Origin: an uncultured Lachnospiraceae bacterium
GTDB lineage: Bacteria; Bacillota; Clostridia; Lachnospirales; Lachnospiraceae
Length of the DNA stretch: 64,000 nt
Direction of reading: 5' to 3'
Assembly: GCA_947644545.1 (NCBI GenBank)
Contig: CANRZW010000012.1
Coordinates: forward strand, 33,892-97,891
The notes beneath the pieces are model-generated. The model was not told the origin of the DNA. It did not search any database and saw nothing but the letters and a program-made list of their open reading frames with translations. The translations under genes and the position numbers were made by a program. Every line of letters begins with the position of its first letter. Position 1 is the first letter of the stretch. Below are positions 13,536-22,659 of this stretch, in pieces.

Positions 13536-15569
13536 CTAATAGATCCTGCGTCCCTTTTCGTCCGCAATCCCGCTCTTCCTGTAAAAATAGCTGTTCACCT
13601 GATCCCGCCACTCCCTGGCATTCTCCAGCTGGCGGACAAACCGCTCTGATACATTCTGATAGATCCGCTCCTCTATCTTCCCTTCCAGCTCTTTCCAGAG
13701 ACGAATCATCTCCTCCACTTCCTCAACGCCCTCGAAATGGCTGTCGTATATATGCTGGATGATCGTCTTACCTGACCGAAGCCTGTGCTGATAGGGCAAA
13801 TGGTGAAAGAACAAAAGCAGTTCTTCCGGACAGGTCTCTGCACCGTTATACAGACAGGCCATAGGATTCGCATACTGCTGTGCATACCCCGTTCCCCGAT
13901 CCGTCCGGTCTACTCCGATTCCCTGCCAATCCGCCCGGTGATAAGTGCCCCAGCGGGAATACTCATAGCCGTCCACACTTGGCCCGTAGTGCTCCATAGG
14001 TGTCACCATCCAGCCGATTCCCAGGGGGCTGGTATATTTCTCATAGGTTTCCCGGGAAGGAAGCAGGATCTTCTTCCCATGCTCCACCACCTGCCTGTCG
14101 TTGGAAAGCGCCAGCCTGATCCATTCCTCCGCGATTGTTTCCGCAGACAGCCCTGTATCGTAGGCCAGACGCCCGAAACCGTAGAAGTTGGCCCCCGCCA
14201 GGTCGTTTCCCGTCCAGTTCTCATCCCTGCCCGTATTACATACCGCGCAGATACCCGCATTGCCGTTATGCATCGTCCGCCCGCTGACCACATCCGCCAC
14301 CGTGCTTCTCTTCTCACAGCAGGTAACGGGCGCGGTGCATTCGCTCCGTGACGGACAGGCTGCACAAGTATTAAAGTCCAGCACCTCTTTGAACATCGGT
14401 ATCAGATAACACACATCAATCTGATGCCCTGTATACTCCTGCGCGATCTGCACCTCCAGCATCTGGTTCGTCTTCTGAAGCGCCCCAAACAGCGGCGACA
14501 CCGGTTCTCTGATCTGGAAATCCATGGGGCCGTTTTTGATCTGCAGGATCACATTGTCGCGGTAATCTCCGTCCGTACCGATGAAATTATCATAGGCCGC
14601 ACGGGCGCGGTCCGTCTTCGTATCCCGCCAGTCCTGCGTACAGTTATAGACAAAACAACGCCAGAGGATGATCCCGCCATAAGGCCTGACCAGATCCGCC
14701 AGCATATTCGCCCCGTCGGCCTGCGTCCTGCCATAGGTAAAAGGCCCCGGCCGTCCCTCCGAATCCGCCTTCACCAGAAAACCGCCAAGCTCCGGAACCG
14801 CCTCATAAACCTGTGCGATCTTCTGCCGCCACCAGGCTGTCACATCCTCATCAAAAGGATCCGCACTGTCCGGGCCGCCCAGCTCTATGGGCGCCGCAAA
14901 ATTCAGGCTTAAGAACAGACGTATCCCGTATTCTGCAAAGAGCGCCGCCATCTTCTTAACCTGCCCCAGATACCGTTCCGTAATCAGCCAGGAAGCGGCC
15001 TCCTTCACATTCACATTGTTGATGACCACGCCGTTGATCCCCACGCTGGCTGCCAGACGGCAGTAATCTCTGGTACGGCGGTTCACAAGTACCCTGTTAT
15101 CCTCAAAGAAAAAGGAATTTCCGGAATATCCCCGCTCAATACTCCCGTCCATATTATCCCAATGGTTGTACATCCTGAGCGGATTGTCCGGCCTGCAGGT
15201 AACATCGATTCCCCGCATCGGCTTTTCCATGGCAACAAGCCGCAACACATGAAAAATACCGTACAGAACCCCCGGACCGTCGGCGGCTTCCACCTGTAGT
15301 ATTCCATCCGCCTCCCGGATCCGATATCCCTCTGCCGGTATCTCCTGTCGGCAGCTTACCAGTACCCCTTCCCGCATCGCTCCGGCGTGCACCAACGTTA
15401 CGCTGCCTCCCAGCATCCCCCTGATTCCCCTGCGAAACTCCGCGACGGCATTTCGTACCATCGGCTGCTCTTCGTCAAATCCCGTTATTTTGATCTTTCT
15501 TGTCAGCTGCGCATTCCCGACATCCTCCACATGCCTGTAAACAAGCCAGCCTTGTGTCCAATTCTCCAT
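13536..15569 (-). CDS. Glycoside hydrolase family 67 alpha-glucuronidase
   Basis: Cytoplasmic enzyme releasing glucuronic or 4-O-methylglucuronic acid from xylan-derived aldouronic acids. GH67 blocks are clear: GINGVVINNVN, LNFAAPIELGGPDSADP, GGFLVKADSEGRPGP and the segment around NGPMDFQIREP, spread through a 677-residue protein of normal family length. The frame is open back to a TTG at 15620, but a perfect stem-loop sits directly there; starting at MENW (15569) matches where the family begins. ATGs at 15590 and 15575 are alternatives. First gene of the GH67-GH38 run. Confidence 0.92.
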   Translation of the reverse strand: MENWTQGWLVYRHVEDVGNAQLTRKIKITGFDEEQPMVRNAVAEFRRGIRGMLGGSVTLVHAGAMREGVLVSCRQEIPAEGYRIREADGILQVEAADGPGVLYGIFHVLRLVAMEKPMRGIDVTCRPDNPLRMYNHWDNMDGSIERGYSGNSFFFEDNRVLVNRRTRDYCRLAASVGINGVVINNVNVKEAASWLITERYLGQVKKMAALFAEYGIRLFLSLNFAAPIELGGPDSADPFDEDVTAWWRQKIAQVYEAVPELGGFLVKADSEGRPGPFTYGRTQADGANMLADLVRPYGGIILWRCFVYNCTQDWRDTKTDRARAAYDNFIGTDGDYRDNVILQIKNGPMDFQIREPVSPLFGALQKTNQMLEVQIAQEYTGHQIDVCYLIPMFKEVLDFNTCAACPSRSECTAPVTCCEKRSTVADVVSGRTMHNGNAGICAVCNTGRDENWTGNDLAGANFYGFGRLAYDTGLSAETIAEEWIRLALSNDRQVVEHGKKILLPSRETYEKYTSPLGIGWMVTPMEHYGPSVDGYEYSRWGTYHRADWQGIGVDRTDRGTGYAQQYANPMACLYNGAETCPEELLLFFHHLPYQHRLRSGKTIIQHIYDSHFEGVEEVEEMIRLWKELEGKIEERIYQNVSERFVRQLENAREWRDQVNSYFYRKSGIADEKGRRIY

Positions 15570-15620
15570 ACTCATCCCCCATAATGCCATCCTGCCTGGC
15601 AAAGTCTTATTTTCATACAA

Positions 15621-15724: not shown

Positions 15725-16627
15725 TTAATATGAATACCCATCGGCGCCACCCTCTGCACCTGCATATGCAATGGCCGATCTGATCGCATAATGTATCCCA
15801 CCGCCATTGACAGGATTACAGGTTCCTGCGAAATCACCTATACCGTTTTTCCTGTAAGAATCCGGCCTTCTCTGATCACAGTGCCCCAGGAACTCCGCCC
15901 TTGGTTTTCTCACATACTCCCATTTTCCCGATACCTTGTGAAGAAAAAAAGCTTCCAGACAATACTGATAGTCGTTTTTCAGTTTCCGGTCAAAATGCCT
16001 GTTCCAGACTCCGACATTCCATAAATGACCGCCAATGGGAAACGCCCAGAAATACTTTTCATGATCGGCTGCATCAAAATACCAGTAATGGAACCTGTCC
16101 TCCGCTAAATTTACGTTTGCCGCTATTTGTCCGGATAAACCTATGCTCTGCTCTTTGGGTATCTCTCCTGAAATCCCTCTGGCCCCGCTTGCCCAGACAA
16201 GTTCTCTGGCGAGGAATCCATTTACCTCATAGAGCTCTCCGCTTTTCGTGACCATGGCGGCCCTCTGACCAAACTGTATCTGCGCATGAACATGCGCAGC
16301 AGCACAAAGCAGATACTGATCCAGCAAAGTTCTCTGTATTCCCAGTGACACCCGCCCTTCCCCATATAACTTCTCTGTGCATCCGCCATCCTCGTAGATC
16401 ACATGGCCCCCGACCTGTCTGGCATTCATCAGAAACAACGGTTCGGCTGCTATTCCTATTTCCTTAAGCATCCGTAACGCTTTATAAGACACACCGCCTC
16501 CACATACTTTTTCTGCCTGACGGCTGTTTCGCTCAAGGATCAAACACCTCTTCCCCTTTTTGCCAAGTTCATATGCACATACGCTTCCTGCAATCCCACC
16601 GCCCACGATAATATAATCATAGATCAT
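15725..16627 (-). CDS. FAD-dependent oxidoreductase of the radical SAM peptide cluster
   Basis: 300-residue flavoprotein with an N-terminal FAD-binding fingerprint VGGGIAGS (residues 8-15) and ILER at the end of the second strand. The C-terminal segment GIGDFAGTCNPVNGGGIHYAIRSA-like (split here only for description; about residues 265-290) resembles the GD motif region of geranylgeranyl reductase and halogenase-type monooxygenases. It starts within the stop codon of the upstream kinase gene (ATGA overlap), so the two are translationally coupled. In this operon it probably oxidises or reduces the modified peptide. No NAD-binding domain is apparent. Confidence 0.82.
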   Translation of the reverse strand: MIYDYIIVGGGIAGSVCAYELGKKGKRCLILERNSRQAEKVCGGGVSYKALRMLKEIGIAAEPLFLMNARQVGGHVIYEDGGCTEKLYGEGRVSLGIQRTLLDQYLLCAAAHVHAQIQFGQRAAMVTKSGELYEVNGFLARELVWASGARGISGEIPKEQSIGLSGQIAANVNLAEDRFHYWYFDAADHEKYFWAFPIGGHLWNVGVWNRHFDRKLKNDYQYCLEAFFLHKVSGKWEYVRKPRAEFLGHCDQRRPDSYRKNGIGDFAGTCNPVNGGGIHYAIRSAIAYAGAEGGADGYSY

Positions 16628-17304
16628 TCTTTCATCATCCTGTACATTTTCTCCACGTCCAAATCTGCTATATTACTCTGTACTGCTATGACTCTGACTA
16701 TCCTGCAAAGATCGTCTGCCACTTCACCCGCAAGCCTTCTGTATTCTTCCGGATAATCATCCCGGATCCTCTCGACCGCCTCTTCTCGGCTCATCCTGCG
16801 CATAGCACAGTCTTTGCTTTTTGAAATAAAAGCAATCCCGTTCACCTTATAAGCCCGAAACGGATCTCCATGACTTACTTTACTCCAGGGCGTCATCCAC
16901 CCCGCTGCCTGTCTTTCTTTGATGCCGGCCACTGTCCTGTCATCGCTTAGTATAAAGGATCTGCCGACGAAATGATCCAGCCATTGACGCGCCATTGTGG
17001 ATTTACCTGCGCCGGGCTTTCCGGCAATCACATACCCCTCATTGTCCACAACCACCGTCACCGCGTGCATCAATAATTTCTTATGGCAGGCTGCACTTTT
17101 GGCAAACATCTGCATGGACAACAGCAGCTCACACTGCTTTGCGCTAAGATGGACATATTTGGCCCTGAACTCTGCCAGACTGCCCATTTCCAGCTTAGTG
17201 CACTCCCCTCTTTCTTCCCGTACCCTGAACCGTTCAAATTGTTCCAGGATCTCTGCAGAATCGGTGGAAAAACTTATTCTCTTCTCAGCGATCAGATATT
17301 GCAC
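16624..17304 (-). CDS. HPr-kinase-like P-loop protein of the radical SAM cluster
   Basis: 226-residue protein with a Walker A motif GKPGAGKST (95-103) inside VDNEGYVIAGKPGAGKST, followed by ILSDD (118-122), the arrangement of HPr serine kinase/phosphorylase-like proteins found in peptide biosynthesis clusters. The N-terminal 80 residues are not recognised. Start is GTG at 17304; GGAG lies 10 bases upstream. HPr-kinase homologues in some lasso peptide clusters (paeninodin) phosphorylate a precursor serine; a similar role on the nearby precursor peptide is inferred, not shown. Overlaps the next gene by 4 bases. Confidence 0.78.
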   Translation of the reverse strand: MQYLIAEKRISFSTDSAEILEQFERFRVREERGECTKLEMGSLAEFRAKYVHLSAKQCELLLSMQMFAKSAACHKKLLMHAVTVVVDNEGYVIAGKPGAGKSTMARQWLDHFVGRSFILSDDRTVAGIKERQAAGWMTPWSKVSHGDPFRAYKVNGIAFISKSKDCAMRRMSREEAVERIRDDYPEEYRRLAGEVADDLCRIVRVIAVQSNIADLDVEKMYRMMKE

Positions 17305-17335
17305 CTGCCTGTATCTCCTCTTCTCTTCTGCCTCT

Positions 17336-18067
17336 TTATGCCAAATAGTAAATATTATATCCTGTCACATTGCCCTTCTGGATTCTCTGGGCTGTCAATA
17401 CTACTTCGCCGTATCGACTGTTCTTTTCTATACAATATCCCATTTCTTCATGCAGCAAACGGCCCAAAGGCTCCTGCGCTACTCTCCCATATAGCTTATA
17501 GCCAATGTTGTTTCCACTAATATGTACGCTGATCCCCTTAAACTTATAAACAGACTTCATATAGGCTTTTATTTCCTTCTCAGTAACAGGATCGCCGTTG
17601 GAAACATGCGCCGCGAATCGATCTGTCTGTTCCCGGATCTTCTCCTGATCCACTACCCCCTTAATACCGTAACGATGCCCCTTCAATATGGTCGGGTAAA
17701 AGTAGAAACTTTGTCCGGTCACTTCCCCCTCCCGGATCCGATACCCAACCGTATAATTCCGGAAAGACTCGTCGAACAGAATCGGAACCAGATCCAGTTC
17801 CTCTCTCACATCCGGCGGCAGATCCCTGTAAATCTCCCGATACTCCTCTCTCATAAGATCAACGTGGAAATTACAGGTATCCATCAGGTTCCCCTCAAGC
17901 ATTGCATATTCAAACAGCGACAGGATCCCCTGTTCCATCCATGTCTGAATGCGGCTGTTTTCTATGCGGCAGCCATCAGGTTCATAATAGATCTTCATCT
18001 GTTCGGTGAATCCCTTCCCGGCATCCTTTAAGATTCTGATCCCACGTGAACGAAATCCGTCTGACAA
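17336..18067 (-). CDS. Unrecognised protein of the radical SAM cluster
   Basis: 243-residue protein that I do not recognise. It starts with TTG directly after the TAA of the preceding radical SAM gene (18068-18070); GGAGG lies 8 bases upstream, so the unusual start is well supported and the two genes are coupled. The sequence is soluble-looking, with alternating charged beta-strand-like blocks in the second half (for example SFYFYPTILKGHRYGIKGV around 120-138 and VVLTAQRIQKGNVTGYNIYYLA at the end). No catalytic motif is obvious. Candidates are a recognition protein for the precursor or an additional tailoring enzyme. Confidence 0.75.
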   Translation of the reverse strand: MSDGFRSRGIRILKDAGKGFTEQMKIYYEPDGCRIENSRIQTWMEQGILSLFEYAMLEGNLMDTCNFHVDLMREEYREIYRDLPPDVREELDLVPILFDESFRNYTVGYRIREGEVTGQSFYFYPTILKGHRYGIKGVVDQEKIREQTDRFAAHVSNGDPVTEKEIKAYMKSVYKFKGISVHISGNNIGYKLYGRVAQEPLGRLLHEEMGYCIEKNSRYGEVVLTAQRIQKGNVTGYNIYYLA

Positions 18068-19198
18068 TTACGTTTCCTCCCCGTCTTTGTGTATATCGCC
18101 AAATTTCCTTTTTATCGTATCGCTGTACTCCTCCGTCTCTCCCCGTCTGAAATCATTTATGATCTCGTCATTGATGTCCAAGACGGCCTTGAAGATCCGA
18201 TCGGATTGATTGCAGCTGTACCGCAGTAAAGCATCATCCTGGACATACATATACGACATGCAGATACATACGCCATTGCATACCCCGGAGGAATCACAAT
18301 CTGTACAATATTCTCCCCGCAATTTCTCCAGTATTCCCAACATTCGTTCATATTCGCTCGAAGTAAAGCAGCTGCTGATGCGCAAGTCATCCGACGGTTC
18401 TCCCAGACAGAACTGCACATCATTCGGCCTTCCAAACGGATAAATCTTTCCGTCCGGATTCAATGCGATTTCCCGATGAAACCAAAACGGCTTAAACTGG
18501 GTATCCCTTCTGAGCGATGCAAATTCTTCAAACGTATAAAACCTTATCTTACACGACCGATCCTTGATCCAATAGCGATAAGTATCCGTGAGGACATGGA
18601 TGAAATGATCCGTATCCATCAAAAGTTCCTGATCAACAGCCGCATACCCTCTTGGTTCGATCGGCAAGATCTTAAAATCTATTTTCCTCTCATTGAACCA
18701 TTTATATATTTCCGTCAAATGCTCATAGGATCCTTTTGAAATCGTACAAAATGCTCTGACTCTGCCGCCCTTTGCCTTGACCTGACCGATCTTTTCATAC
18801 ACCCGTTCCTTATGCTGACGCAGGAAGTCATGGTATGGGCCGTCAAAAGATATATTGATCAGCGTCTGATTTGCAACCAGCAATTCTATCAGCTCATCAT
18901 CCAGCAAAAGGCCATTGGTTGTAAAGTTATTTGCGAACCTGACATGATACTTGTCGATCATCTGCTTTTGAAATGCAAAGACTTCCCTGTAAAAAGCATT
19001 CCCCGCAAGTGTCGGTTCCCCGCCATGAAAAGTAACTTTGACGTCGCTGTACTCCCTGCAGGCCGATTCTATGAACTGACAGACGGTTCCGACTCCCGTC
19101 ATTTCAACCCGCTTCAAATCATCTCCGTTAAAACAGTGCCTGCATTTCATATTGCATTTCAATGTCGGTTTAATTGTTAAAGCAATTTCATGTACCAT
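18068..19198 (-). CDS. Radical SAM/SPASM-type peptide-modifying enzyme (third)
   Basis: 376-residue radical SAM enzyme. The iron-sulfur motif CNMKCRHC (C15, C19, C22) is followed by FHGGEPTL, the GGE SAM-binding motif. The C-terminus holds a Cys-rich auxiliary-cluster region (CTDCDSSGVCNGVCIC... C near residues 295-310 and a further C around 330), as in anaerobic sulfatase-maturing-like and SPASM enzymes. Two adjacent ATGs exist; the second (19198) has GGAG 6 bases upstream. It is immediately adjacent to the previous radical SAM gene. It probably installs a crosslink or other change in the precursor at 21201-21305. Confidence 0.88.
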   Translation of the reverse strand: MVHEIALTIKPTLKCNMKCRHCFNGDDLKRVEMTGVGTVCQFIESACREYSDVKVTFHGGEPTLAGNAFYREVFAFQKQMIDKYHVRFANNFTTNGLLLDDELIELLVANQTLINISFDGPYHDFLRQHKERVYEKIGQVKAKGGRVRAFCTISKGSYEHLTEIYKWFNERKIDFKILPIEPRGYAAVDQELLMDTDHFIHVLTDTYRYWIKDRSCKIRFYTFEEFASLRRDTQFKPFWFHREIALNPDGKIYPFGRPNDVQFCLGEPSDDLRISSCFTSSEYERMLGILEKLRGEYCTDCDSSGVCNGVCICMSYMYVQDDALLRYSCNQSDRIFKAVLDINDEIINDFRRGETEEYSDTIKRKFGDIHKDGEET

Positions 19199-19201
19199 CA
19201 T

Positions 19202-20101
19202 TCACTCCAAATTTTCATATAGTCTGTTTTCAAAAAACTCCAGTGCCTTATACTCGTCCACTGCTGACATACATCGGTCAGCGAAAGGACAGTCTGCCAT
19301 ACAATCCATCCGATTCCGGGTAAGATCCATAATGCGGTATTGATTCCTGTCTTTGAAATAAACGATCAAAGCTTCCCGATCTCTTTCCAACTCACAGCTT
19401 CGCATCCACTCCATACTCTTGATGCAGCTGTCAAAGATCTTGATCTTTACATTACGCTGACTGAAATAGTCAAAAAATATCTTCATAAACCGGGACGCAT
19501 CATCATTCGATATCGTTTTGCAGCCATTCTGAGCCGACACGATCGTATCGGCCATCTTTGTCAGATGGATTGCATGGTCAAACAGGATCTCCCGCTCGAA
19601 AGCCTGCAATGTCCTGTCACCGGAAGGATCTTCCTCTATCATGCGGTTGTTCAGGATCAGTTTTACGTCAACCGGACAGTTCGTCTGCTCCACAAGATAC
19701 TTCAATCCCGCTATGGTTTCCTGATAACTGCCCTTCACTCTCGTGATACTGTCATGAATTTCCTCATATCCATGAATCGGAATAATAAATCGGAAATTTT
19801 CGTTTAAACAGGAAAGATCATAGTTCGTAATCATTCGGCCGTTCGTATAAATCAATACTTCACATCCGTAAGGAAGCAGGCCGCCGAGTATTTTTCCTAT
19901 CTCAGTATGCATCAATGGTTCTCCGCCATTGACAATCACACGATCCTTTGCAGAAAGCTCTTTGTCGTCCAAATATTCAAAAAACTGTTCGACCGTCATT
20001 TCATTATGTGGCTGCGCATTATGCCACGTGTTATGCGAGTAGCAAAATATGCAGTTGCTGTTACACCCATATGTAATATTGAAATAGAAAATCCTTTTCA
20101 T
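19202..20101 (-). CDS. Radical SAM enzyme with short Cys-rich C-terminus (second)
   Basis: 299-residue radical SAM protein. CNSNCIFC (C13, C17, C20) binds the SAM [4Fe-4S] cluster, and VNGGEPLMH is the GGE motif. The C-terminal end carries the pattern C-x3-C-x5-C (CMADCPFADRC, about 270-280), less than a full SPASM set, so a reduced auxiliary cluster (twitch-like) is possible. The ATG at 20101 has GGAGG 5 bases upstream and is preferred over one 12 bases earlier. It is 21 bases downstream of the first radical SAM gene, in the same operon. Confidence 0.87.
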   Translation of the reverse strand: MKRIFYFNITYGCNSNCIFCYSHNTWHNAQPHNEMTVEQFFEYLDDKELSAKDRVIVNGGEPLMHTEIGKILGGLLPYGCEVLIYTNGRMITNYDLSCLNENFRFIIPIHGYEEIHDSITRVKGSYQETIAGLKYLVEQTNCPVDVKLILNNRMIEEDPSGDRTLQAFEREILFDHAIHLTKMADTIVSAQNGCKTISNDDASRFMKIFFDYFSQRNVKIKIFDSCIKSMEWMRSCELERDREALIVYFKDRNQYRIMDLTRNRMDCMADCPFADRCMSAVDEYKALEFFENRLYENLE

Positions 20102-20122
20102 GATTCCCTCCATTCCGCAGCG

Positions 20123-21109
20123 TCACAACCTTTTCTCCTTAAGCTTAGGACATCTTATATCACCCATGCCCAATTTCCCGAAATAGTGATAGGACATTCC
20201 TATGCATCCTCCGTTACAGAACTTCTGATATTCACAATTACGGCACTCTGTATCGTCCGCCGGCTTATATTCTGTAAAGATCTTATTCTGCTCGCTGTCA
20301 AGTATTTCGGCAAGTGACTGCCTGCGCAGATCACCGATACAGAAATCCGTCAGACAGGTGCACGGATATACCCTAAAATCCGGATAGACATAAATCTTAT
20401 TCCTGCCGCTGCTGCAATTCAGCGTTCTGATACGGTCAGCAGACACCCGCTCCAGTTCCGCCTTTCTTTTCTCGTATAAGTCAAACGGAAATATTTTGCG
20501 GATTTGAAGCTTGAAAGCAACCCTTTTTAACAGCTCATCGACAAATTCATTCCACTCATCGGCGCTCATCATAGATGCAAAGCCGGCGCTTCCAAAGGGC
20601 ATTTCATACGATACCCGCCAATATTTCATACCGGACAATTTCTCTAATTCCGGTATCAGTGCAAATATTTCGTCCCTGTTCTTATGGCTGACCACTGACG
20701 CGACAGCATATTTTAATGCAAGCCGCTCCAATCTCAACAAGGTCTGCCAGGTTCTCTCAAATGCCTTCTCTCCTCTGATCTGATCGTGTTTCTCTCTGTT
20801 ACCATCCAGGGAGACCTGAAACAAAAGATTATCATAGGGAACCAATTCCTCCAGATGCTCTCCGAACGTTCCGTTCGTGGTAACCGTGACTGTCTTCGCT
20901 TCACCGCACATTAATTTCACAATCCTTACAAACTCTCCGTGCAGAAAAGGTTCCCCGCCTGTTATCACAATATCATGTCCCGTAAAATCATTCTCATTGA
21001 CGATCTTTTGAAGCTGATCGAAATCTAAGTTGATCCCCTTCTGTTTCCCCCTGACGCACATTGAACAATTCAAATTACAGTTCTCCGTGAGTAATATATA
21101 GATCTGCAT
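20123..21109 (-). CDS. Radical SAM/SPASM enzyme (first after precursor)
   Basis: 328-residue radical SAM protein: CNLNCSMC (C11, C15, C18), GGEPF as SAM-binding motif, and a complete-looking SPASM domain with Cys residues around CSSGRNK, YPCTCLTDFC and CRNCEYQKFCNGGC. This architecture is usual for enzymes that modify ribosomal peptides. The frame is open 78 bases further upstream, but the ATG at 21109 has GGAG 7 bases in front and begins just before the first strand, so I use it. It is the first enzyme after the candidate precursor and most likely acts on it. Confidence 0.9.
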   Translation of the reverse strand: MQIYILLTENCNLNCSMCVRGKQKGINLDFDQLQKIVNENDFTGHDIVITGGEPFLHGEFVRIVKLMCGEAKTVTVTTNGTFGEHLEELVPYDNLLFQVSLDGNREKHDQIRGEKAFERTWQTLLRLERLALKYAVASVVSHKNRDEIFALIPELEKLSGMKYWRVSYEMPFGSAGFASMMSADEWNEFVDELLKRVAFKLQIRKIFPFDLYEKRKAELERVSADRIRTLNCSSGRNKIYVYPDFRVYPCTCLTDFCIGDLRRQSLAEILDSEQNKIFTEYKPADDTECRNCEYQKFCNGGCIGMSYHYFGKLGMGDIRCPKLKEKRL

Positions 21110-21129
21110 TCTCCTACTCCTCTCTCTAT

Positions 21130-21167
21130 GACAGGCCGCCGACGGTAAAGTCTGCCGGCAGCCTGTC
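21130..21167 (-). promoter_or_regulatory. Intercistronic hairpin between precursor and enzymes
   Basis: A 14-bp stem (21130-21143 with 21154-21167, 12 Watson-Crick pairs and two wobble or mismatch positions) follows the precursor stop codon. There is no T-run on the minus strand after it, so it is more likely an attenuating or mRNA-stabilising structure than a full terminator. Such a structure would let the short precursor be made in excess over the enzymes. Confidence 0.6.
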
Positions 21168-21200
21168 ATCTTGTTGGTATCTGCCAATCAATCAGGATAC

Positions 21201-21305
21201 CTAATTGGCTTCTCCCCAGGAACACATGTCAAATAAGCTGGCTTCATCACACTCAGCGCTATTGACATCCTGCCAGGACATTGCCATAATTTCAATGTTT
21301 TCCAT
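21201..21305 (-). CDS. Candidate RiPP precursor peptide (34 residues)
   Basis: Short ORF from ATG 21305 to TAG 21201, preceded by a strong AAAGGAGG site 10 bases upstream. The 34-residue peptide begins MENIEIMAM, has Trp at 11 and 30, Cys at 19 and 28, and ends SWGEAN. It is acidic, has no membrane segment, and is the first gene of an operon encoding three radical SAM enzymes, an HPr-kinase-like protein and a flavoenzyme. That placement and size are typical of a ribosomally made precursor. Ser 10, 16, 23 and 29 are possible phosphorylation sites. I do not recognise the family; the leader/core boundary is unknown. Confidence 0.7.
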   Translation of the reverse strand: MENIEIMAMSWQDVNSAECDEASLFDMCSWGEAN

Positions 21306-21648: not shown

Positions 21649-22659
21649 ATGGAACTATTCAACAAATACAAAAATAAAGACTTCACTTACATGACCAATT
21701 ACATAAACAACTGTCTTAACGATGATACACTGGCTCTCTCGCCCGGAGAAATCGCCTCCCAGCTTTCCGGCGAATCCCAAAGAACATTCGAGGAGTTCAT
21801 TCATGCAATCCTGAACCAATCCTCCACAGACGAAGAGCTTAATGCGGCGCTGCTCTATGAGAATGACGGCAGGATGCAGCCCATACGCCAGATTTCAATC
21901 CCGGTCAGAGCCACTGTTGCGGAAAAGGCATGGCTGTATTACATCCTGCAAAATCCAAAATCCGACTTATTCCTGGAACCTGCTTTGAAGGAGCATCTGC
22001 TTAAGGCGCTTGCCTCTGACAGCGATTTATCCGATTACCCATTGCAATCCGACTATATCGATCTGCGCAGTCTCTCTCCGGATAACCACCTGCATATCAC
22101 ACCGGAATATACTGCCAATTTCAAGAAAATAGTAACGGCTGTCCGCGGACACAGATATCTCCTCGTGACAAATAACAGTTACGCCGGACACGTTTATGCC
22201 GATCAAAAGATAATACCCTATAAGCTTGAGTACTCGGCTCAATTCGATTCCTTTTCGCTGTCATGCTGTCCTCTGGAAAGTAAAAGACCTGTGAAAATGA
22301 ATCTGAACAATCTCTCCAGAGTAGAAATAGATGCCCCTATAGAAAATTATGAAAAAATCCTGCATGAATACGAGCGTTTGTTAGTCGAGACAAAAATGGA
22401 CGTTCCCGTCACCATTGAAATTTCTAATAATAATGAAGCTTATGACCGATGCTCCTACCTTTTCTCGTCGTTTGATACCTATTGTTACGATAAAGGAAAT
22501 GACAAACTGATCATGCGCATTTATTACTACAGATTTCAGAAAGAGGAAATTATCCGCAATATCCTCTTTCTGGGTCACTACGTTAAAGTAATCTCCCCGG
22601 AAGACATTAAGACCGAAGTCATTTCCGCTATCAAAAGCTCTTACGAAAACTATCTGTAA
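21649..22659 (+). CDS. WYL-domain protein, putative regulator of the radical SAM cluster
   Basis: 336-residue protein. The middle part resembles a WYL ligand-sensing domain (LRSLSPDNHLHITPEY-like region, then PYKLEYSAQFDSFSLSCC), and the end, ILFLGHYVKVISPEDIKTEVISAIKSSYENYL in outline, matches the C-terminal extension (WCX) of WYL regulators. No N-terminal helix-turn-helix is evident, which is unusual. GGAGG sits 12 bases before the ATG. It is divergent from the precursor operon and visibly poorer in G+C than the flanking sugar genes, like that operon. Regulation of the cluster is inferred from position. A strong terminator follows. Confidence 0.65.
   Translation: MELFNKYKNKDFTYMTNYINNCLNDDTLALSPGEIASQLSGESQRTFEEFIHAILNQSSTDEELNAALLYENDGRMQPIRQISIPVRATVAEKAWLYYILQNPKSDLFLEPALKEHLLKALASDSDLSDYPLQSDYIDLRSLSPDNHLHITPEYTANFKKIVTAVRGHRYLLVTNNSYAGHVYADQKIIPYKLEYSAQFDSFSLSCCPLESKRPVKMNLNNLSRVEIDAPIENYEKILHEYERLLVETKMDVPVTIEISNNNEAYDRCSYLFSSFDTYCYDKGNDKLIMRIYYYRFQKEEIIRNILFLGHYVKVISPEDIKTEVISAIKSSYENYL

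Follow-up and report, generated by a model that had tools for sequence, protein, structure and literature searches.

Within the window, by which we mean the whole 64,000-nucleotide stretch of DNA that was analysed, ORF calling recovered all the reading frames of seven tightly spaced genes on the minus strand between positions 15725 and 21305. Read in the direction of the genes, they are:

21201 to 21305, minus strand: precursor peptide of 34 residues with a conserved C-terminal segment, SWQDVNSAECDEASLFDMCSWGEAN (relatives in 5/5 other loci, alignment and codon comparison)
20123 to 21109, minus strand: rSAM1, radical SAM protein that carries a SPASM domain (cut-offs of Pfam Radical_SAM and SPASM both exceeded)
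19202 to 20101, minus strand: rSAM2, short radical SAM protein (Pfam Radical_SAM; SPASM match absent)
18068 to 19201, minus strand: rSAM3, radical SAM protein whose C-terminal cysteines are SPASM-like (Pfam Radical_SAM; relative of anaerobic sulfatase-maturating enzyme)
17336 to 18067, minus strand: predicted ABBA-fold prenyltransferase of 243 residues with a TTG start (AlphaFold2 model, Foldseek and VIA-align)
16624 to 17304, minus strand: HPr-kinase-related P-loop protein of 226 residues with a GTG start, an optional member (HprK-related matches below the cut-off)
15725 to 16627, minus strand: flavoprotein related to geranylgeranyl reductases (TIGR02032 below the cut-off; 3oz2 as the best solved relative)

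The peptide gene is separated from rSAM1 by 91 bases and rSAM1 from rSAM2 by 21 bases. Between rSAM2 and rSAM3 the gap is 0 or 3 bases, depending on the choice of the start codon. The 243-residue ORF follows rSAM3 with a gap of 0 bases, the gene of the P-loop protein follows after 31 bases and overlaps with the FAD gene by 4 bases. This layout with its gaps agrees with the preliminary description of the locus, which had also stated that no dedicated protease or exporter lies in the operon. Among the seven genes, neither a leader protease nor an exporter was found by inspection of the ORFs and by Pfam and NCBIfam searches. Not every RiPP needs such a gene in its cluster. One flank of the operon carries a GH67 alpha-glucuronidase gene (13536 to 15620), the other a divergent gene of 336 residues with an unclear family assignment. 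The GC content of the operon is 45.7%, compared to 54.9% and 52.3% in the two measured flanks.

Related loci were collected by a profile scan of genome contigs that started from the 243-residue protein and led to four loci, L003 to L006. All four have the same genes behind a short ORF. Since the scan employed two peptide patterns, it misses divergent relatives. With the rSAM3 profile, one further relative was found in the genome G414, which belongs to the same phylum but to a different class. Its locus L010 has the gene order peptide, rSAM1, rSAM2 and rSAM3, and is without the other three operon genes. G414 gave no match to the prenyltransferase profile or the flavoprotein profile; as a control, the same two profiles did match in the genome of the window. 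The radical SAM proteins of L010 are 49% (rSAM1), 41% (rSAM2) and 47% (rSAM3) identical to those of the window, and by sequence the three proteins are orthologous across the classes. The peptide and the radical SAM trio are thus retained in 6/6 loci, the window included.

A relative of the 34-residue peptide precedes the same radical SAM genes in each of the five other loci examined. Whether homologous clusters retain a short ORF next to these enzymes had been proposed as a test of the first reading of this locus, a RiPP-type pathway, and the outcome supports that reading: a conserved short precursor gene adjoins the putative modifying enzymes in all six loci. Full-length relatives of the peptide are encoded in L003 (2931 to 3035), L004 (6797 to 6901), L005 (6792 to 6905) and L006 (1557 to 1658). 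The L010 peptide, MEKENIKAEDIQEENRTDMELESILNMCSWGEFN or one methionine longer, has only the C-terminal end in common with the others and contains no second tryptophan or cysteine. All six peptides terminate in MCSW(G/A)ExN, which in L010 reads MCSWGExN. The five peptides from loci with the 243-residue gene align over 37 columns, 19 of which are invariant, and the common pattern consists of M1, E2, a variable stretch and SW[QE][DE][VI]N..ECD[EN]ASLFDMCSW[GA]E.N. In addition, an AGGAG-type stretch is found upstream of the peptide ORF in 6/6 loci. The DNA pattern of the peptide core had a single match in the window's genome and a single match in G414, in both cases at the operon. It was absent from a third genome tested, and the reversed control pattern gave zero matches.

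The codons of the last 24 residues were compared between pairs of loci. Between the window and L003, 4 synonymous and 1 non-synonymous differences were counted, and between the window and L005 there were 8 and 2, respectively. The excess of synonymous change weakens with the distance between the loci, with 6 synonymous and 6 non-synonymous differences for the window and L006, 7 and 8 for L004 and L006, and 4 and 7 for L005 and L006. Because the peptide ORF has kept its place and its sequence in 6/6 loci, within a conserved gene order, we conclude that it is a real gene. That it arose by chance and that the enzymes serve unrelated pathways can be dismissed as hardly credible: short ORFs are frequent in this stretch, but chance does not account for a place, sequence and gene order conserved in all six loci, or for the mostly synonymous differences between near relatives.

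The distribution of the operon was studied in genome draws that overlap and that each cover part of their group. The 243-residue protein was found in 1/398, 1/397 and 1/391 genomes, each time the window's own. In the draws searched for rSAM3, 1/98, 2/329, 1/80, 1/180 and 1/116 genomes were positive, and these were only the window's genome and G414. Within the genus of the window, rSAM3 occurred in one of 60 searched genomes, again the window's own. The rSAM3 relatives include proteins of Clostridium baratii, Paraclostridium bifermentans, Bacteroides and Muribaculaceae. Among the genomes searched, the operon is rare and patchy. Its GC content below that of the flanks and its rarity in the genus would fit a horizontal gain. 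A plasmid origin was rejected since neither the operon DNA nor the 243-residue protein nor rSAM3 had a plasmid match, and a phage origin since the 243-residue protein had no matches in phages or viral contigs. Searched against viral contigs, rSAM3 gave four matches with 22-28% identity, which were left out of the argument.

All three radical SAM proteins contain the CxxxCxxC motif, as had been described, in the forms CNLNCSMC, CNSNCIFC and CNMKCRHC, and all three exceed the cut-off of Pfam Radical_SAM. In rSAM1, the CX3CX2C motif and the C-terminal cysteines C289-X2-C-X5-C-X3-C and C320 are invariant in the 6 loci, and the closest solved relative is SkfB. In rSAM2, the cysteines C226, C267, C271 and C277 are invariant in the 6 loci, and the C-terminal CX3CX5C arrangement suggests one auxiliary cluster. 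The closest solved relative of rSAM3 is an anaerobic sulfatase-maturating enzyme (E 1.6e-28). The best NCBIfam profile matches of the radical SAM proteins were to DynA and PapB, far below the curated cut-offs. The cut-offs of the DynA, PapB and anSME equivalogs were missed, with a best score of 131 bits against 450 for rSAM3 with the DynA model. All three proteins also matched the PADLOC viperin models with about 51 bits. An anti-phage identity was rejected, since this probably reflects the shared radical SAM fold, given that dozens of maturase models were matched as well.

The 243-residue protein matched no Pfam or NCBIfam model. It was modelled with AlphaFold2, which gave a pLDDT of 95.2 and a pTM of 0.91. 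When the model was compared with known structures by Foldseek and VIA-align, prenyltransferases filled 50/50 rows in each among the matches listed, and the structure of KgpF was among the Foldseek rows. The Foldseek superposition was loose over the whole length, with TM scores of 0.44-0.57 and an rmsd of 6-9 Å. In the family of the protein, 39/46 invariant columns lie in strands. Invariant Lys, Arg and Tyr, considered as candidates for diphosphate binding, are located in strands as well. The invariant polar strand residues gave no signal for being on one face of the barrel (20/29; 12687 of 20000 random draws were equally good). By its predicted fold, the protein is probably an ABBA-type prenyltransferase. 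The preliminary description had listed it as an unknown protein, which it still is for Pfam and NCBIfam; the structural comparisons now provide a candidate identity.

The flavoprotein had its best curated match to TIGR02032, the geranylgeranyl reductase family, with E values of 1.1e-30 for the window's protein and 6.6e-34 and 1.2e-35 for two further members. The three proteins missed the cut-off of this family with 107.3, 117.9 and 123.6 bits against 158.8. The best solved relative was 3oz2, an archaeal digeranylgeranylglycerophospholipid reductase, where positions 1-295 of the 300 profile positions were aligned. The rows after 3oz2 are titled conserved archaeal protein, and we take them to be geranylgeranyl reductases as well. 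The invariant segments CGGG and KYFWxFPxG..WNVG align with the corresponding segments of 3oz2. The homology to geranylgeranyl reductases was full-length, with the CG and YxWxFPxG segments kept, which are presumably catalytic in these enzymes. Halogenases trailed in the profile search. Given this relationship to the geranylgeranyl reductases, a prenyl chain is a likelier substrate of the flavoprotein than the peptide, which refines the earlier proposal of a flavin redox step on the peptide.

The co-occurrence of the genes was tested with a proxy, in which exactly equal longest-contig sizes of two protein clusters were taken to indicate the same contig. The lists contained 69 prenyltransferase clusters, the best 120 of 166 rSAM3 hits and 85 flavoprotein hits from 7997 scored candidates. 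With the best 120 of 166 rSAM3 hits, 18/69 prenyltransferase clusters matched an rSAM3 cluster, 30/69 matched an rSAM3 or a flavoprotein cluster and 9 contig sizes were common to all three lists. A flavoprotein cluster among the 85 hits was matched by 21/69 prenyltransferase clusters. Controls with shifted lengths gave 0-2 matches. Another 11 contig sizes linked rSAM3 to flavoprotein clusters but did not appear in the prenyltransferase list, which reflects either missed divergent copies or true absences. A prenyl reductase beside a predicted prenyltransferase would make sense of both genes.

It has to be considered that the 243-residue protein is an ABBA-like barrel but not a prenyltransferase, and that the flavoprotein acts on the peptide, by oxidation or halogenation. 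Two observations are in line with this: no sequence similarity was detected between the 243-residue family and known prenyltransferases or ABBA families, and the flavoprotein profile also reaches the halogenase 3e1t with an E value of 1.3e-07. However, the geranylgeranyl reductases rank above the halogenases, with a lead of four to five orders of magnitude, both structure comparisons returned prenyltransferases throughout among the matches listed, and a partner gene resembling a prenyl reductase fits prenyl transfer. We regard this alternative as clearly doubtful.

The kinase-like gene is present in 3/5 prenyltransferase loci (the window, L003 and L006), whereas in L004 and L005 no kinase-like ORF was found between the prenyltransferase and flavoprotein genes. 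Its product had weak matches, below the cut-offs, to HprK-related kinase models, and a structure prediction with three sequences gave a pLDDT of 40.4 and an uninformative fold. In the alignment of the five peptides, no Ser or Thr was confined to the kinase-bearing loci. Position 31 is Gly in 3/3 loci with the gene and Ala in 2/2 without, which among five related sequences can equally be explained by descent. Since the ORF is missing from 2/5 loci, the possible phosphorylation proposed earlier may stand as an optional tailoring, but not as a core step.

Taken together, from the gene content, the conservation, the relatives of the flavoprotein, the co-location and the predicted fold we infer, with a probability of about 0.55, that the operon encodes a RiPP pathway in which a core modified by the radical SAM trio is prenylated by the predicted ABBA enzyme and the prenyl chain is then reduced by the flavoprotein. 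The trio would modify the C-terminal MCSW(G/A)ExN segment of the 34-residue precursor. Since the locus of the distant genome G414 is limited to the trio and the peptide, these may be the core module, to which the prenyltransferase and the flavoprotein would have been added as a lipidation module that travels together. The prenyl acceptor would most likely be a tryptophan. Residues that are confined to the prenyltransferase loci are better candidates, with a single locus on the contrasting side. Trp11 is favoured since it is found in 5/5 loci with the prenyltransferase and in 0/1 without; Cys19 has the same distribution and, like Trp30, is a possible acceptor. The kinase-like protein would contribute an optional tailoring step. 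Both the removal of the leader, by a protease, and the transport would depend on genes outside the operon.

Other roles of the product were weighed against this pathway. The peptide could give rise to a small cofactor within the cell, like PQQ or mycofactocin, where a few residues of CSWGExN are remodelled and excised. The short precursor, the one core-pattern match per genome, a core that is nearly invariant across classes and the lack of an exporter or immunity gene in the operon would be consistent with this, and such a fixed core seems more cofactor-like than weapon-like. However, the operon is rare and patchy, down to one in 60 genomes of the genus for rSAM3, a cognate dehydrogenase was not observed among the operon genes, and conservation extends back to Trp11 and so exceeds a few residues. 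With the model of the mycofactocin radical SAM maturase, rSAM1 scored 67.8 bits against a cut-off of 265. A cofactor of this kind is possible but unlikely.

Alternatively, the product could be a secreted antimicrobial or signalling peptide. Such roles are frequent among lipidated and radical SAM modified RiPPs, and 3/6 loci adjoin genes for macro, vWA, NYN, PIN, AAA+ or protein-kinase/TPR proteins, which are possible markers of conflict or stress regions. In a non-systematic look at the ORFs, such neighbours were not seen at the window, L005 and L006. In addition, the operon has no exporter, immunity or protease gene, and the core sequence is not diversified, which makes a secreted product rather improbable.

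The most far-reaching reading, which we consider a long shot, is that the product is a membrane lipid cofactor of ribosomal origin, where the trio would generate a cross-linked or redox-active CSWGExN headgroup and the prenyltransferase and the reductase together would attach a saturated isoprenoid anchor. If true, this would be a peptide-derived counterpart of the lipoquinones, in which the radical SAM chemistry of RiPPs and isoprenoid tailing meet in one pathway.

The RiPP pathway with prenylation and prenyl-chain reduction, if right, would join these steps with radical SAM modification in one pathway, in a compact system with a substrate of 34 residues. The ABBA-fold prenyltransferases would gain a sequence family without a Pfam or NCBIfam model. 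As a natural control, the trio-only locus in the distant genome would allow the core chemistry to be told apart from the lipidation. Among the matches listed in the open-licence literature, we found no case in which radical SAM enzymes were described to act on one precursor together with a prenyltransferase and a relative of the geranylgeranyl reductases, and no named class that has this set of genes, in line with the first impression that the combination belonged to none. The single steps are known kinds of chemistry; what is new is how they are combined, along with the enzyme family and the conserved core.

Radical SAM RiPPs are well known, as described in PMC8326336. The operon resembles the systems with maturases of the DynA, PapB, SkfB and anSME type in the SPASM or twitch-like cysteines and in the short precursor gene adjoining the enzymes, but it has three non-identical enzymes for one precursor and scores far below the respective cut-offs. 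With the archaeal geranylgeranyl reductases such as 3oz2, the flavoprotein aligns nearly end to end, but it is shorter (300 versus about 400-450 residues) and encoded in an operon with a peptide.

In the SynChlorMet cassette (ScmC, ScmE and ScmF), an HprK-related protein is likewise encoded along with two proteins of the radical SAM/SPASM type. The kinase-like protein of L006 matched ScmC with an E value of 2e-06, and the window's radical SAM proteins matched ScmE and ScmF weakly, all below the cut-offs. To our knowledge, the cassette has no prenyltransferase or geranylgeranyl-reductase relative, both of which are added in the operon.

A kinase gene inside a RiPP cluster is also found in the lasso clusters with PadeK and ThcoK, where a tailoring kinase is described to phosphorylate the precursor (PMC9266682), and an HPr kinase is noted in lasso clusters of anaerobes (PMC4289311). 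Unlike these, the operon contains no lasso B or C gene, and the precursor ends with Asn and not with Ser.

The clusters of MppC, KgpF and LimF, which make prenylated lanthipeptides and cyanobactins, share with the operon a gene for a soluble ABBA-type prenyltransferase, as predicted here for the 243-residue protein. MppC is reported to geranylate a Trp of its precursor and to require the leader (PMC12715784), and KgpF is described as a Trp C-prenyltransferase (PMC11002830). The 243-residue protein differs from these enzymes in having no detectable sequence similarity to them. In the operon, three radical SAM enzymes take the place of the lanthionine synthetase or macrocyclase, and a relative of the geranylgeranyl reductases is added.

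The start of the operon in the window is adjoined by one divergently oriented gene:

21649-22659, plus strand, gene for a 336-aa protein

Its Pfam matches were weak and all below the cut-off (WCX 0.07, Col-Pyo_DNase 0.066), and the gene is a possible candidate for a regulator. Immediately upstream of the peptide gene, two of the related loci encode a small charged protein, which was not seen upstream of the window's operon:

L003 2520-2807, 95 aa
L004 6568-6789, 73 aa

These two proteins are 72% identical across 39 residues.

In three of the six loci, genes for macro, vWA (below the cut-off), NYN, DUF1232, PIN, AAA+, a small radical SAM/Fer4_12 protein or a protein-kinase/TPR protein were observed close to the operon:

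L003 642-1712, 1812-2498, 9321-10115 and 10962-11732
L004 2338-6543
L010 157-2181, 3308-5146, 5152-5724, 10234-10785 and 11066-11290

The neighbour proteins of L003 and L010, loci from different classes, have a C-terminal domain in common (45% over 118 aa) as well as a short DUF1232-like match.

Within the precursor peptide, residue 31 is Gly in all three loci with the kinase-like gene and Ala in both loci lacking it (window and L003-L006), a pattern in five sequences that are too few and too closely related to tell it from shared descent. More peptide variants may lie near the genes of four distant rSAM3 homologues with 46-49% identity, P0156, P0168, P0176 and P0181, whose source names include Clostridium baratii, Paraclostridium bifermentans, Bacteroides and Muribaculaceae.
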